Shown: positions 33,088 to 37,854 of the stretch, piece by piece
How positions within the stretch are numbered: the stretch's first letter is position 1
Layout: every line of letters begins with the position of its first letter
Assembly (NCBI RefSeq): GCF_036880985.1
Contig: NZ_JBAJNO010000008.1
Coordinates: 2,667,500-2,731,499, forward strand
Source of the DNA: Limibacter armeniacum
GTDB taxonomy: Bacteria > Bacteroidota > Bacteroidia > Cytophagales > Flammeovirgaceae
Length of the DNA stretch: 64,000 nt
Direction: 5' to 3'
Position numbers and translations under genes: made by a program
Notes under the pieces: model-generated
Told to the model about the DNA's origin: nothing
Databases searched by the model: none
What the model saw: only the letters and a program-made list of their open reading frames with translations

Positions 33088-33276
33088 TCAAATCACTTTT
33101 TTCTTTCTCAAGTCCCTGAAAATCTCGATCAGTGCACTAACGATTGCGAACAGAAAACATGGTTGTGCCACAAATACAAACAAAAACATCAGGAAGGGTG
33201 TAGGCCAAATCATGTAAGGAATTGTAATTACCATTCCTACAATAACAAACAAGCTTTCAATAAATACCTTTCTCAT
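33088..33276 (-). CDS. Small membrane protein at the end of the nap operon
   Basis: 62 residues with two hydrophobic helices (VFIESLFVIVGMVITIPYMI and FLMFLFVFVAQPCFLFAIVS) and a basic C-terminus (RDLRKKK). Its start overlaps the cytochrome gene's stop by four bases (ATGA), and the operon terminator follows it, so it is very likely translated. It may be an accessory or NapE-like small subunit of the quinol-oxidising complex, but the sequence does not prove this. Confidence 0.68.
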   Translation of the reverse strand: MRKVFIESLFVIVGMVITIPYMIWPTPFLMFLFVFVAQPCFLFAIVSALIEIFRDLRKKKVI

Positions 33277-33971
33277 TTTTTTAGTGATGCTTTTTCAATG
33301 TCTTTAATATACTTTTCTATAACAACCACCTGTTCAGCTGCCTCATTCAGTTTTTTATAATCAGGATGGTCTGGCGTCCTTCTGGACCGCTCTGGGTGTG
33401 CTCTCCCGTGACAGTTCAAACAACTCAGTGTTGGGTTAGCACTAGTAAGGTTAGAAAGCACTGGTTCGTGCTCAGCCACTCTAGTAAAACGGTAATCATT
33501 TTCATGGCAACTCAAACAGTTACCATAATTGAACTCACCTCTATATGCAATTGGCTCTTCATAGGTATTGGTCACATATCGCATTAAATGCCTGTAACCA
33601 TCCATTTTAGCCTTAAACGTACCTTGAAAACCATAATCCTTATGACAGGCATAACACTCATGCTCTCCTAACCACCCATTCCGGTAATGTCGAGCTGCAA
33701 GTGTCATGCTGTTTTCCTTTGTCAAGTCCATCATATCAGCTCCTATTGGCGCCATCACATGACAACCCATACAGGTTTCAGAGTTTTTTGTACCTTCAAA
33801 TACATGGTAATTGGCAAATACCATAGTCGCTATTGGCACAAGTATAATCCCAAATAACACCAGCCACTTTACCTTTGTAGTCAAACTATCCCGGTTTTTA
33901 CGTAGCAGATAAAGAAGTATTACCTCAATTATCAGCAACATAATCGCCAAGGGTATCAATATAGTTTCCAT
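33273..33971 (-). CDS. Tetraheme cytochrome c of the NapC/NirT/NrfH type
   Basis: 232 residues. Two N-terminal membrane helices (~5-22 and ~35-55) anchor a periplasmic domain with four heme-binding CxxCH motifs: CMGCH, CYACH, CLSCH and CLNCH. Such proteins oxidise menaquinol in the membrane and pass electrons to periplasmic reductases. It begins three bases after napA, so it is the obvious electron donor. NapB, the usual diheme intermediate, is missing, and this cytochrome presumably donates directly to NapA. Confidence 0.92.
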   Translation of the reverse strand: METILIPLAIMLLIIEVILLYLLRKNRDSLTTKVKWLVLFGIILVPIATMVFANYHVFEGTKNSETCMGCHVMAPIGADMMDLTKENSMTLAARHYRNGWLGEHECYACHKDYGFQGTFKAKMDGYRHLMRYVTNTYEEPIAYRGEFNYGNCLSCHENDYRFTRVAEHEPVLSNLTSANPTLSCLNCHGRAHPERSRRTPDHPDYKKLNEAAEQVVVIEKYIKDIEKASLKK

Positions 33972-33974
33972 CAG

Positions 33975-36269
33975 CTATCTGTTTTGGAGTGGTAACGACT
34001 TGGATACACTTACAGCTGTTACCTTATATGCAGGCTCTTTTGATACAGGATCATAATCGTCTGAAACCACTTTATTGACCAAGAAATTAGGGTCATAAAA
34101 TGCGGCAAAAACAACACCTGGTGTCTCATTTTCAGAAATCTTGACTTTACCCATCATTTCACCTCTACTGCTATCAATCTTCGCCATATCCCCCTCTTTC
34201 AGACCGAGCTTCAGGGCATCTTCTGGATGCAATACCAAACATGCATCTCCACTAGAGTTTTTCAGTTCATCCACCAAACGTGTCATCGTACCTGTATGCC
34301 ATTGGGAGATAACCCTACCTGTTGTCAGGAACAATGGTCGTTGTTCAGAGAGTTGCTCTTTCGTTTTGATATAGGGTCTCAAAAAAACGACAGCCTTCCC
34401 ATCAGGCTTTCCATAGAAATAGTGTTTCTTTCCTTTTGGCACAAATGGATCACCTTCTGTATACCTCCTGACCGTACCGGGATGGTCTTCACTTGGACAA
34501 GGCCACTGAATACCTCTCTCCTCTTTGAGCCTTTCGTATGTAATTCCCTTAAAGTTGTATTTACTGTGCGAAGAAAGCTCTCTGTATTCTTCCCAAACAT
34601 CATGAGGTGTTCTTGCCTTGATCAACCCTCCATAACCCATCCTTTCAGCAAACTCTCCCAAAATTTCCAAGTCACTTCTTGCTTCACCTGGCGGGTCAAT
34701 GAGTTTCTCAATCAGCTGATACCTTCTTTCTGTCTGACCATATACGCCCTCCTTCTCTATATACAAAGCTGCTGGTAACACGACATCTGCCAATTTGGTA
34801 GTCTCCGTTTCAAATACATCTGCCACCACCAAGAAGCATTTCTCCATTCCCTCTCGATAGTAATCTGCATTGGGAACTGACTGTGCTGGATTGGTACACA
34901 TTACCAAACAGCATTTGAGTTTATCTTCCACCATGGCTTTAAACATATTGATCGCATCATACCCTGGTTTAGGATTTATGGTACCCTTTTTCACACCCCA
35001 TAGTTCTTCCATCTCATTACGGTGCTGTTCCTTGGCAATCAGCCTGCCATTTGGAAGCATATGTGATAACGACCCTGTATCCCTTACTCCTCCACAGGCA
35101 TTACATTGTCCAGTAAGTGAAAGTGGTGTAGCGCCAGGTCTATTGATATGCCCTGTTACAAGGTGCATGCTGTTCAAGGTATTATTAAGGAAAACACCTT
35201 GAATTCGTTGGTTAATCCCCATTGTCCACAAAGACATCGTCGCCTTTGAATTGCCAAACATATAAGCAGCCCTTCTGATTTCCCTTGCAGAAACACCCAA
35301 TTCCTCAGCTATGTCTTCAGGTTTGTAATCCGCCAAAAACTTTTTGTAATCCTCAAAACTGACATTCTGTTTACCATCATTGAAATTGATATGTTCATTG
35401 ACAAACTCATTGTCATAAAGTCCCATCTCGATCAATGTGTAAAGCATTGAGTTCAGAAGAAGTAAATCAGTACCGGGAATTACAGCCAAATGCAGGTCAG
35501 CATGTTCTGCAGTCTTGGTTCTTCGAGGGTCAATGACTATGATCTTGACTTTTGGGTTGGATTTTTTGCGGATCATTATCCGTTCAAACAATGGCGGGTG
35601 ACATTCATATGTATTGGAACCAATCAGGAAGAAACATTCTGCATGGTCAATATCTTCATAAGCGCCAGGTGGCTCGTCCTTACCAAAAGTCTGTGTATAC
35701 CCTACTGCGGCAGAAGCCATGCATAGCCTTGGATTTCCATCTACATTATTGGACTGGATACCTGCCTTGAATAGTTTATTGGCGGTGTAAGATTCCTCTG
35801 CATACAACTGACCTGAACCATAATAACCAACACTTTCGGGGCCACTTGCAGCTATAGCTTCCTTAAACTTGTTAGTGATCAAGGTCATAGCATCATCCCA
35901 AGAAGCTTCAACCAGTTTACCTTCCTTTCGGATCATTGGCTTGGTTAAACGTTGCTCCCTGTTAGCCATCATTTTATCAAGAGTAGAACCCTTGATACAA
36001 ATCACACCTTTGTTATGTGCTTCCTGATCTCCCCTAATTCTAACAAGTTTCTTATCCTTGTTCATACCTAACATCACACCACATCCCGTTCCACAATACC
36101 GGCAAACGGACTTATGCCATTTAGCCACAGGGCCTTCATCCACAATAAACTCTGTAAAAGCCCAACCTCCAGCCGCCAAACCACCTACAGCAATCACGCC
36201 ACCAGCAAGCTTGACAAAGTCCCTTCTTCCGATATCATGTATTTCTTTATCCGATTCTTTTTTATCCAT
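33975..36269 (-). CDS. napA: Periplasmic nitrate reductase catalytic subunit (NapA-type molybdoenzyme)
   Basis: 764 residues. A twin-arginine signal (GRRDFVKL, Arg15-Arg16) leads into the [4Fe-4S] motif with Cys56, Cys59, Cys63 and a fourth Cys near 91 (GVICIKG). The molybdenum ligand is Cys183 in NPRLCMASA. Conserved MGD-binding blocks are LIGSNTYECHPPL, IDPRRTKTA, WTMGINQRIQG and the C-terminal LTTGRVISQWHTGTM. Subgroup assignment to NapA rather than assimilatory NasA rests on the Tat signal, the CxxCxxxC spacing and the neighbouring quinol-linked cytochrome. NapD, NapB and NapG/H are absent from the window. Confidence 0.9.
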   Translation of the reverse strand: MDKKESDKEIHDIGRRDFVKLAGGVIAVGGLAAGGWAFTEFIVDEGPVAKWHKSVCRYCGTGCGVMLGMNKDKKLVRIRGDQEAHNKGVICIKGSTLDKMMANREQRLTKPMIRKEGKLVEASWDDAMTLITNKFKEAIAASGPESVGYYGSGQLYAEESYTANKLFKAGIQSNNVDGNPRLCMASAAVGYTQTFGKDEPPGAYEDIDHAECFFLIGSNTYECHPPLFERIMIRKKSNPKVKIIVIDPRRTKTAEHADLHLAVIPGTDLLLLNSMLYTLIEMGLYDNEFVNEHINFNDGKQNVSFEDYKKFLADYKPEDIAEELGVSAREIRRAAYMFGNSKATMSLWTMGINQRIQGVFLNNTLNSMHLVTGHINRPGATPLSLTGQCNACGGVRDTGSLSHMLPNGRLIAKEQHRNEMEELWGVKKGTINPKPGYDAINMFKAMVEDKLKCCLVMCTNPAQSVPNADYYREGMEKCFLVVADVFETETTKLADVVLPAALYIEKEGVYGQTERRYQLIEKLIDPPGEARSDLEILGEFAERMGYGGLIKARTPHDVWEEYRELSSHSKYNFKGITYERLKEERGIQWPCPSEDHPGTVRRYTEGDPFVPKGKKHYFYGKPDGKAVVFLRPYIKTKEQLSEQRPLFLTTGRVISQWHTGTMTRLVDELKNSSGDACLVLHPEDALKLGLKEGDMAKIDSSRGEMMGKVKISENETPGVVFAAFYDPNFLVNKVVSDDYDPVSKEPAYKVTAVSVSKSLPLQNR

Positions 36270-36485: not shown

Positions 36486-36860
36486 ATGAAATTACGCATT
36501 AAAGATGCATCAGTAAGGTTAAGACTGGATAAGGTTGACCTTGATACCTTGAATGAGAAAGGAAAAGTGGAAACAGTTACGCCTTTTTGGAATAGAATGC
36601 TAAAATATGCGGTCAGAACGACAACCTCAGTTTCTCACCTATCGGCAACTTTCGAAAATGAACGCATTATGCTGTACATTCCTGAAAGCTATCTGGCAGA
36701 AATGATCGAGACTGACAAGGTCGGCTTTGACCATGTTCAGAAAAATGAGGATGGAACTCAACTAAGTATTTTAATTGAAAAAGACTTTAAGTGTCTGACA
36801 CCTAGAAATGAAGATGAAAGTAACGCCTTTCCGAATCCACAAGAGGGGCATTCATGCTAA
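36486..36860 (+). CDS. DUF7009 protein
   Basis: 124 residues, small and soluble, beginning MKLRIKDASVRLRLDKVDL. The pattern of a short N-terminal strand with R-x-R, a middle LYIPESYLAEM and a C-terminal Cys in HPRNEDESNAF-type tail (FKCLTPRNEDES) matches the DUF7009 family as I remember it, which is found beside molybdopterin genes in Bacteroidota. It ends 13 bases before moaA and is divergent from napA, so a role in molybdenum-enzyme maturation is an inference from position. Confidence 0.78.
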   Translation: MKLRIKDASVRLRLDKVDLDTLNEKGKVETVTPFWNRMLKYAVRTTTSVSHLSATFENERIMLYIPESYLAEMIETDKVGFDHVQKNEDGTQLSILIEKDFKCLTPRNEDESNAFPNPQEGHSC

Positions 36861-36873
36861 CAAATAGATTTAT

Positions 36874-37854
36874 ATGCTGCAAGATAAATATGGAAGACCA
36901 ATCAGCTATGTAAGATTAGCTGTGACAGACAGGTGCAACCTCAGGTGTACATACTGTATGCCTGAACACATTCAGTTTGTTGAAAGAAAAGCGCTGCTCA
37001 CTTTTGAAGAAATGGAAAGGCTACTGATGATCCTTACCCAAATGGGTGTCAACAAGGTAAGAATCACTGGAGGTGAGCCATTTATGAGAAAAGGCCTTAT
37101 GGATTTTTTAGACAACCTATCTTCCATAGAATTGCTCAAAAAGATCACCTTGACTACCAATGGTGTATTTACACAACAATACCTCTCAAAGCTGAAAGCG
37201 CTTGGCATCAACAGTATCAACCTAAGTCTTGATACACTGGACGCTCAAAAGTTTTTTCAGCTGACTAGGCGAAATGAGTTCCAGACAGTATGGGCTACTT
37301 TTGAGCAAATGGTAGCGATGGGCTTTGCGGTAAAAATCAATATGGTAGTGATGGAAGACCAAAATACAGAAGACATTCTTCCAATGGCTACTTTGGCTGA
37401 GCAATACCCTGTTGATGTACGGTTTATTGAAGAGATGCCTTTCAATGGAGAAGAAAACAGACACCCTGTGCTGAAATGGGATTATGTCCGAATACTGGAG
37501 GAATTAAAAAGTGTTTACCCTGACTTGAAACTGATGGTGGCAGAACCTCATTCCACTTCACTCAACTACTCTGCTCCAAGGTTAAAAGGAAAACTGGGAG
37601 TGATTCCCGCCTACAGTCGTACCTTCTGTGGGAGCTGCAATAGAATCAGAATCACATCTCAAGGATTTTTGCATACTTGCCTTTACAGCAAGTCTAGCCT
37701 GAACCTAAGATCTTTACTTCGATCTGGTGCTTCAGATCAGGAGATCCAACTTGCCATTCAGCAGGCTGTTAGTGGAAAAGCTAAAAACGGATTTGAGGCT
37801 GCCCGTCTCAACAAGGACAGCCTATCCGCCTCTATGTCAACAATTGGAGGATAA
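36874..37854 (+). CDS. moaA: GTP 3',8-cyclase MoaA
   Basis: 326 residues. The radical-SAM motif is DRCNLRCTYCMPE (C-x3-C-x2-C) near residue 20. The second [4Fe-4S] cluster is bound by FCGSCNRIRITSQGFLHTC. The C-terminal double glycine required for activity is kept (SMSTIGG). MoaA converts GTP to cyclic 8-GTP, the first step of molybdenum-cofactor synthesis. The divergent neighbour NapA needs this cofactor. No moaC, moaE or moeA is in the window. It ends only four bases before the convergent queE. Confidence 0.96.
   Translation: MLQDKYGRPISYVRLAVTDRCNLRCTYCMPEHIQFVERKALLTFEEMERLLMILTQMGVNKVRITGGEPFMRKGLMDFLDNLSSIELLKKITLTTNGVFTQQYLSKLKALGINSINLSLDTLDAQKFFQLTRRNEFQTVWATFEQMVAMGFAVKINMVVMEDQNTEDILPMATLAEQYPVDVRFIEEMPFNGEENRHPVLKWDYVRILEELKSVYPDLKLMVAEPHSTSLNYSAPRLKGKLGVIPAYSRTFCGSCNRIRITSQGFLHTCLYSKSSLNLRSLLRSGASDQEIQLAIQQAVSGKAKNGFEAARLNKDSLSASMSTIGG

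Follow-up and report, generated by a model that had tools for sequence, protein, structure and literature searches.

How can a periplasmic nitrate reductase work in an organism that encodes neither NapB nor NapD? The question is raised by an operon of Limibacter armeniacum (GCF_036880985.1), found in a 64,000-nucleotide stretch of contig NZ_JBAJNO010000008.1 (positions 2,667,500-2,731,499; here called the window). Genes for the catalytic subunit NapA, a tetraheme cytochrome (CYT) and a 62-residue membrane protein (P62) follow one another in that order on the minus strand; we refer to them as the trio. On balance, we lean towards the view that the trio makes up a distinct type of periplasmic nitrate-respiration module, complete in itself, in which CYT and P62 form a quinol-oxidising unit that feeds a membrane-held NapA directly.

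The coordinates of the open reading frames (ORFs) give a 3-base gap between NapA and CYT and a 4-base overlap between CYT and P62. A preliminary description of the window had proposed a tight three-gene operon; its frames, strand and both spacings all agree with these coordinates. The operon consists of NapA, CYT and P62 alone. It contains no further cytochrome gene and no napM or napGH, although a genome-wide search for NapG/H/F and NapM was not made. The genome (8.04 Mb, nine contigs, completeness 100) gave no match to NapB or NapD in whole-genome searches, in both of which the E. coli control was positive. The absence of these two proteins, first proposed for the window, therefore extends to the whole genome, and a napB/napD pair elsewhere, which had been named as grounds for abandoning the idea, was not found. 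TorD/NarJ-type chaperones are absent from the L. armeniacum genome and from nine of the nine trio genomes searched. TatC is present by whole-genome search.

The trio is not confined to L. armeniacum. Forty distinct NapA-CYT loci were found and all 40 carry P62, one copy of which (L145) is frameshifted. In contrast, P62 is present in none of 66 comparison loci (best match E 0.53), 63 of which have another NapA; this set comprises 61 of the best 80 loci of a species-genome scan, two plasmid loci and three other loci of the L. armeniacum genome. Among 291 genomes of the order, 12 (L. armeniacum included) encode a NapA at least 69% identical; all belong to the same family, and CYT and P62 lie behind NapA in all 12. 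The scan found the same arrangement in 19 of the best 80 of 565 relatives, four of which repeat genomes already counted. Two Persicobacter plasmids add two loci, genomes G491 and G315 add two, and a sample of 395 phylum genomes adds nine, including the frameshifted copy. A class-wide search with P62 only listed nine of 395 genomes; L. armeniacum, G491 and G315 are convincing and six are at chance level. A misplaced or contaminant operon can be rejected, as the trio is present in 11 same-family relatives.

In the species scan, genomes with the trio are labelled as Bacteroidota, Acidobacteria, Planctomycetota, Cystobacterineae (Myxococcota), Poribacteria, Oscillochloris (Chloroflexota), Nitrospirota and Latescibacterota; one further trio genome, labelled Proteobacteria, groups with Cystobacterineae in the NapA tree. 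Gene order is constant in the 40 loci; where spacing was measured, in 20 of them, the gaps run from -4 to 106 and from -20 to 48 bases. The most distant rows give weak P62 scores (E 0.054 in L064 and 0.001 in L069, with a narrow profile), so the P62 call in these two rests on position and alignment. Broken frames are seen for P62 in L145 (2034-2264) and for NapA in L106 (1-1702), due to decay or assembly error.

NapD and NapB were compared across 40 whole genomes, 27 with the trio and 13 without. NapD scores over cut-off in two of the 27 trio genomes compared with 12 of the 13 others; four more genomes (three trio, one non-trio) have matches under cut-off. Both NapD-positive trio genomes have NapD beside a second NapA. 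Within a single organism, NapD thus accompanies one NapA but not that of the trio. Weak NapB matches exceed the cut-off in three of the 27 trio genomes; two of these matches lie in the second Nap cluster and the third is in G676. NapB is clear in one of the 13 non-trio genomes and in both gammaproteobacteria added as controls. Second Nap clusters with their own NapD, cytochrome c3-type, FeS and NrfD-like proteins and no P62 occur in two Flammeovirga-type genomes (L138 4646-10825, on F. kamogawensis plasmid NZ_CP076130.1; G034:C1:4223440-4226362). In F. kamogawensis (G090), the second cluster is on a plasmid and contains napD, a molybdoenzyme, a cytochrome c3, a hypothetical protein, a 4Fe-4S protein and an NrfD-like protein.

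The trio NapAs share a common origin within Nap. A tree of 54 rows (25 trio, 27 other Nap and two Nas as outgroup) was built by a quick method under LG+G4 without bootstrap. L130 (no ORF by motif), L106, several near-identical Flammeovirga loci and nine phylum-sample loci in which NapA is seen in part only (L141-L149) were left out. The trio NapAs form one clade inside Nap (Shimodaira-Hasegawa-like approximate likelihood ratio test, SH-aLRT, 100), with Nas outside. The neighbours of this clade are the monomeric NapA of Desulfovibrio desulfuricans and two Acidobacteriota NapAs, in an order that the tree does not settle. Grouping of NapA with non-nitrate molybdoenzymes, the other outcome that had been expected to overturn the initial idea, was not observed.

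In the mechanism we propose, CYT would be held in the membrane by its two N-terminal helices and the P62 hairpin, and would take electrons from the quinol pool. Its four c-type hemes would hand them straight to NapA, at its [4Fe-4S] cluster and Mo site; this NapA is a short NapB-independent form and would reduce nitrate to nitrite. NapA would itself be membrane-held, through an uncleaved twin-arginine translocation (Tat) signal in L. armeniacum and, in some relatives, through a lipid anchor; with NapA held at the membrane, no NapB- or NapM-type shuttle would be needed. Maturation of NapA would proceed without NapD, and P62 would stabilise or multimerise CYT, as TorE/NapE do for TorC/NapC. Nitrite would be reduced to ammonium by NrfA, which is encoded elsewhere in the genome and is preceded by a 202 aa ORF that reads as NrfH-like. 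A pathway from nitrate through nitrite to ammonium is likely.

NapC and NrfH have one membrane helix, which runs up to heme 1. CYT is related to these quinol-oxidising cytochromes by family models and shares their four CXXCH motifs, which are invariant in 22 aligned rows. The Pfam NapC/NirT model matches it over cut-off (27.7 bits, cut-off 24.1), and the best NCBIfam model, NrfH, is under cut-off at E 1.6e-12. Quinol oxidation by CYT is thus suggested by its family. The single N-terminal helix expected of NapC/NirT/NrfH cytochromes is not what is predicted for CYT: the structural model (predicted local distance difference test, pLDDT, 70.3) has helices at residues 2-25 and 32-60, and two hydrophobic stretches agree with them. 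The second helix extends up to heme 1; since it is placed like the single anchor of NapC/NrfH, the first helix would be the extra one. A further difference is that the direct partner of CYT would be NapA, with P62 adjoining. Fold searches gave one Foldseek match at E 6 and no VIA match among 6 chains; as they used a pLDDT 70 model without hemes, these nulls say little. A profile search of solved structures found part of NrfB (E 0.017) and two reaction-centre cytochromes (0.24-0.49). In a Cystobacterineae metagenome-assembled genome (MAG), heme 1 of CYT (L065 5496-6176) is followed by a charged insert of ~50 residues, and the first helix is seemingly missing.

Attachment of NapA to the membrane is the weakest step of the proposed mechanism. 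Among 39 non-trio NapA signals, 32 have an AxA-like cleavage site and seven a lipobox; two of the latter carry an AxA site as well and are unlikely to be lipoproteins. The 29 trio signals divide differently: five have a lipobox, nine have an AxA-like site and 15, including that of the window, have neither, a state found in none of the 39 others. After the hydrophobic stretch, a W..TE motif is conserved in each of the 18 trio rows that come from Cytophagales-type genomes and related MAGs (the window, L005, L006, L008, L010, L012, L047, L136, L139 and L052-L060). As judged from these signals, an uncleaved or lipid anchor would fit NapA in most of the trio clade.

Several observations weigh against the proposed module. 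The signal stretch of the window NapA is borderline hydrophobic (1.66), and the nine trio NapAs with an AxA-like site may be cleaved. Confidence in the CYT model is moderate (pLDDT 70), and no structural relative was found with it. Co-occurrence of the three genes does not amount to 40 independent events, because the trio is one lineage across phyla. Finally, every species-scan trio genome from outside Bacteroidota is a MAG, so that the lack of NapD or NapB in any one of them counts for little.

Some of these observations would suit an ordinary monomeric Nap, in which a soluble NapA receives electrons from CYT via another periplasmic cytochrome (NapM-like) and P62 is a minor accessory. The AxA-like site kept in nine of 29 trio NapAs is consistent with this, as is the separate tetraheme NapM of the sister D. 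desulfuricans type (PMC5317091). We consider this arrangement unlikely, since the operon has no further cytochrome gene (soluble cytochromes were not searched genome-wide) and the trio remains a conserved unit across phyla.

P62 has no match in Pfam or NCBIfam; a Pfam search of six P62 relatives, with E values up to 10 admitted, yielded a single chance match (0.026), for one of the proteins. Between P62 and four relatives there are 34-42 differences at third codon positions and 9-26 at first or second positions over 63 codons. Twelve copies align without gaps over 62 columns, the 11 relatives being 37-74% identical to the window P62. This concentration of differences at third positions and the gapless alignment show that P62 is a real gene. 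It is modelled as a two-helix hairpin (residues 2-23 and 27-58, pLDDT 90.6) and is predicted to lie wholly within the membrane. Matches in a profile search of solved structures are at chance level (best 0.17).

A small membrane protein that binds a NapC-type cytochrome has a precedent: TorE and NapE bind TorC and NapC in 4:4 complexes, and TorE reinforces the anchoring of TorC (PMC6134056). Like them, P62 is small, hydrophobic and of similar size, and in every one of the 40 NapA-CYT loci found its gene sits with those of a NapC/NirT-type cytochrome and a molybdoenzyme. P62 is not a member of the family. Six P62 proteins gave no NapE match up to E 10, and the NapE model is over cut-off in none of 15 genomes, with no listed weak match at P62. 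TorE is predicted to have one helix (PMC6134056), in contrast to the hairpin modelled for P62. Furthermore, NapE accompanies 68% of NapC according to the same article, while P62 accompanies every NapA-CYT locus found. The likeness we draw is one of possible role. The constant position of P62 behind CYT lends weight to the earlier suggestion that this protein might be an unrecognised subunit.

At two loci of the phylum sample, a distant CYT has a weak P62-like ORF directly behind it (L152 9823-10790, minus strand, E 3e-4; L153 9773-10870, plus strand, E 0.011). No NapA lies within the 15-20 kb read at these loci; other cytochrome c genes are near, and CYT with its P62-like neighbour may belong to a different respiratory chain.

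Around NapA, P62 and NapD almost never occur together, as would be expected if P62 replaced NapD as an assembly or insertion factor for NapA rather than acting as a partner of CYT. Such a replacement is improbable: NapD binds the NapA signal peptide in the cytoplasm (PMC4159696) while P62 is predicted to be all-membrane, the P62 gene comes immediately after that of CYT, and at two loci without NapA in the stretch read a distant CYT is followed by a weak P62-like ORF.

NapA itself carries a twin-arginine signal, the [4Fe-4S] cysteines, and the Mo-ligand Cys with neighbouring active-site residues. Cys140, Met141, Asp155, Glu156, Gln346 and Arg354 (D. desulfuricans numbering), which we take to be the positions that matter, are invariant across the aligned trio rows. 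The Pfam molybdopterin domains are over cut-off. The two best NCBIfam models are both NapA, and neither reaches its cut-off (636 bits against 904 and 612 against 931); both models are 830 positions long and the window NapA has 764 residues. We file it as Nap on its position in the tree, with reservation for these unmet cut-offs. Its best solved relative is D. desulfuricans NapA (776 bits; E. coli NapA 540). The genome encodes two further molybdopterin enzymes, one of them Nas-like. The Nas-like frame (~1190 aa; L049 9121-12684, G000:C6) is 42% identical to the window NapA and far longer; its cluster, with NirB/NirD, a transporter and siroheme genes, reads as nitrogen assimilation. Reduction of another oxyanion, or of nitrate only incidentally, would accord with the low NapA model scores, the Nas-like enzyme and the lack of any nitrate phenotype of Flammeovirga in the literature consulted, but is very improbable given the place of the trio inside Nap with Nas outside, its invariant active-site residues and the presence of NrfA for the product nitrite.

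Nap systems without NapB and with a tetraheme donor are known from Caldithrix (PMC5317091) and Sporomusa (PMC12780646). As NapB-free Nap of the Desulfovibrio/Caldithrix type is already described, what is unusual here is the lack of NapD together with a constant P62. The preliminary interpretation largely holds and gains for P62; the direct electron transfer from CYT to NapA that it called for is here a proposed step. The monomeric Nap of D. desulfuricans (napCMADGH) and that of Caldithrix abyssi share with the trio a short NapA, no NapB and a tetraheme cytochrome in the cluster. In both, napM and napGH are part of the cluster, joined in the D. desulfuricans type by napD (PMC5317091, PMC13223375). 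The trio operon has none of these genes; the trio adds P62, and its NapA signal often has no clear cleavage site. In Sporomusa ovata (napGHCAD) and Selenomonas ruminantium (napD-napGH-napC-napA), a NapB-free NapA likewise adjoins a tetraheme NapC; unlike the trio, these clusters have NapD and NapGH-like genes (PMC12780646), and the S. ruminantium locus has no P62. Sporomusa NapC and NrfH have one helix in the same article, compared with two predicted in CYT.

NapD is essential for Nap activity in E. coli (PMC4159696), and each of the four nap operon structures in a 2026 review includes napD (PMC13223375). The NapD-free, P62-bearing trio operon fits none of the four as presented there; as far as the open-access literature searched shows, it is an undescribed nap type. 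A 2025 NapA phylogeny retained only homologues with other known subunits in the operon (PMC12769810), a filter which could have removed the trio. More tentatively, the trio may constitute a fifth nap operon type spanning about eight phyla, combining a new two-helix CYT/P62 quinol dehydrogenase with a tethered NapD-free NapA, with the CYT/P62 pair also used outside nitrate reduction.

The features of the locus are given in Table 1. The preliminary description placed a terminator right after the operon, and a stem-loop is indeed located just past the P62 stop (33064-33038). A scan found two terminator-like sites compared with 2.5 in shuffled sequence; what makes the P62 terminator credible is therefore where it lies and its stem, and not the count of such sites. 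The MoaA gene is not claimed as part of the enzyme; it is also located behind P62 in nine of 11 same-family relatives. A DUF7009 protein (36486-36860, plus strand, Pfam E 5e-40) is encoded immediately before MoaA, in divergent orientation to napA. In four genomes, frames judged by eye to be barrel-like outer-membrane proteins are found near the trio (L045 13315-14643, L047 9915-11264, L147 2-937 and L149 2719-3592); these are possibly nitrate or nitrite pores.

Table 1. Features of the trio locus in L. armeniacum (positions within the window)
Feature	Position	Strand	Description
NapA	33975..36269	-	764 aa, periplasmic nitrate reductase catalytic subunit with molybdenum bis(pyranopterin guanine dinucleotide) (Mo-bisPGD), short NapB-independent group
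Twin-arginine signal segment of NapA, residues 15-55	36105..36227	-	No clear AxA site, no lipobox; proposed membrane anchor
CYT	33273..33971	-	232 aa, NapC/NirT/NrfH-like, four CXXCH, two N-terminal helices (predicted)
P62	33088..33276	-	62 aa, conserved two-helix membrane hairpin (predicted), no known family; proposed CYT partner
Intrinsic terminator behind P62	33038..33064	-	11-pair stem, then T run
MoaA, molybdenum cofactor synthesis	36874..37854	+	TIGR02666, 346 bits against cut-off 284; divergent neighbour

A NapA lineage that is seemingly NapD-free provides a natural test of the purpose of NapD. P62 would be an unnamed respiratory subunit, of a kind easily missed or annotated as hypothetical, and a system of three genes lends itself to complete reconstitution. 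The trio likewise points to a possible route to nitrate ammonification for marine Bacteroidota, Flammeovirga among them.

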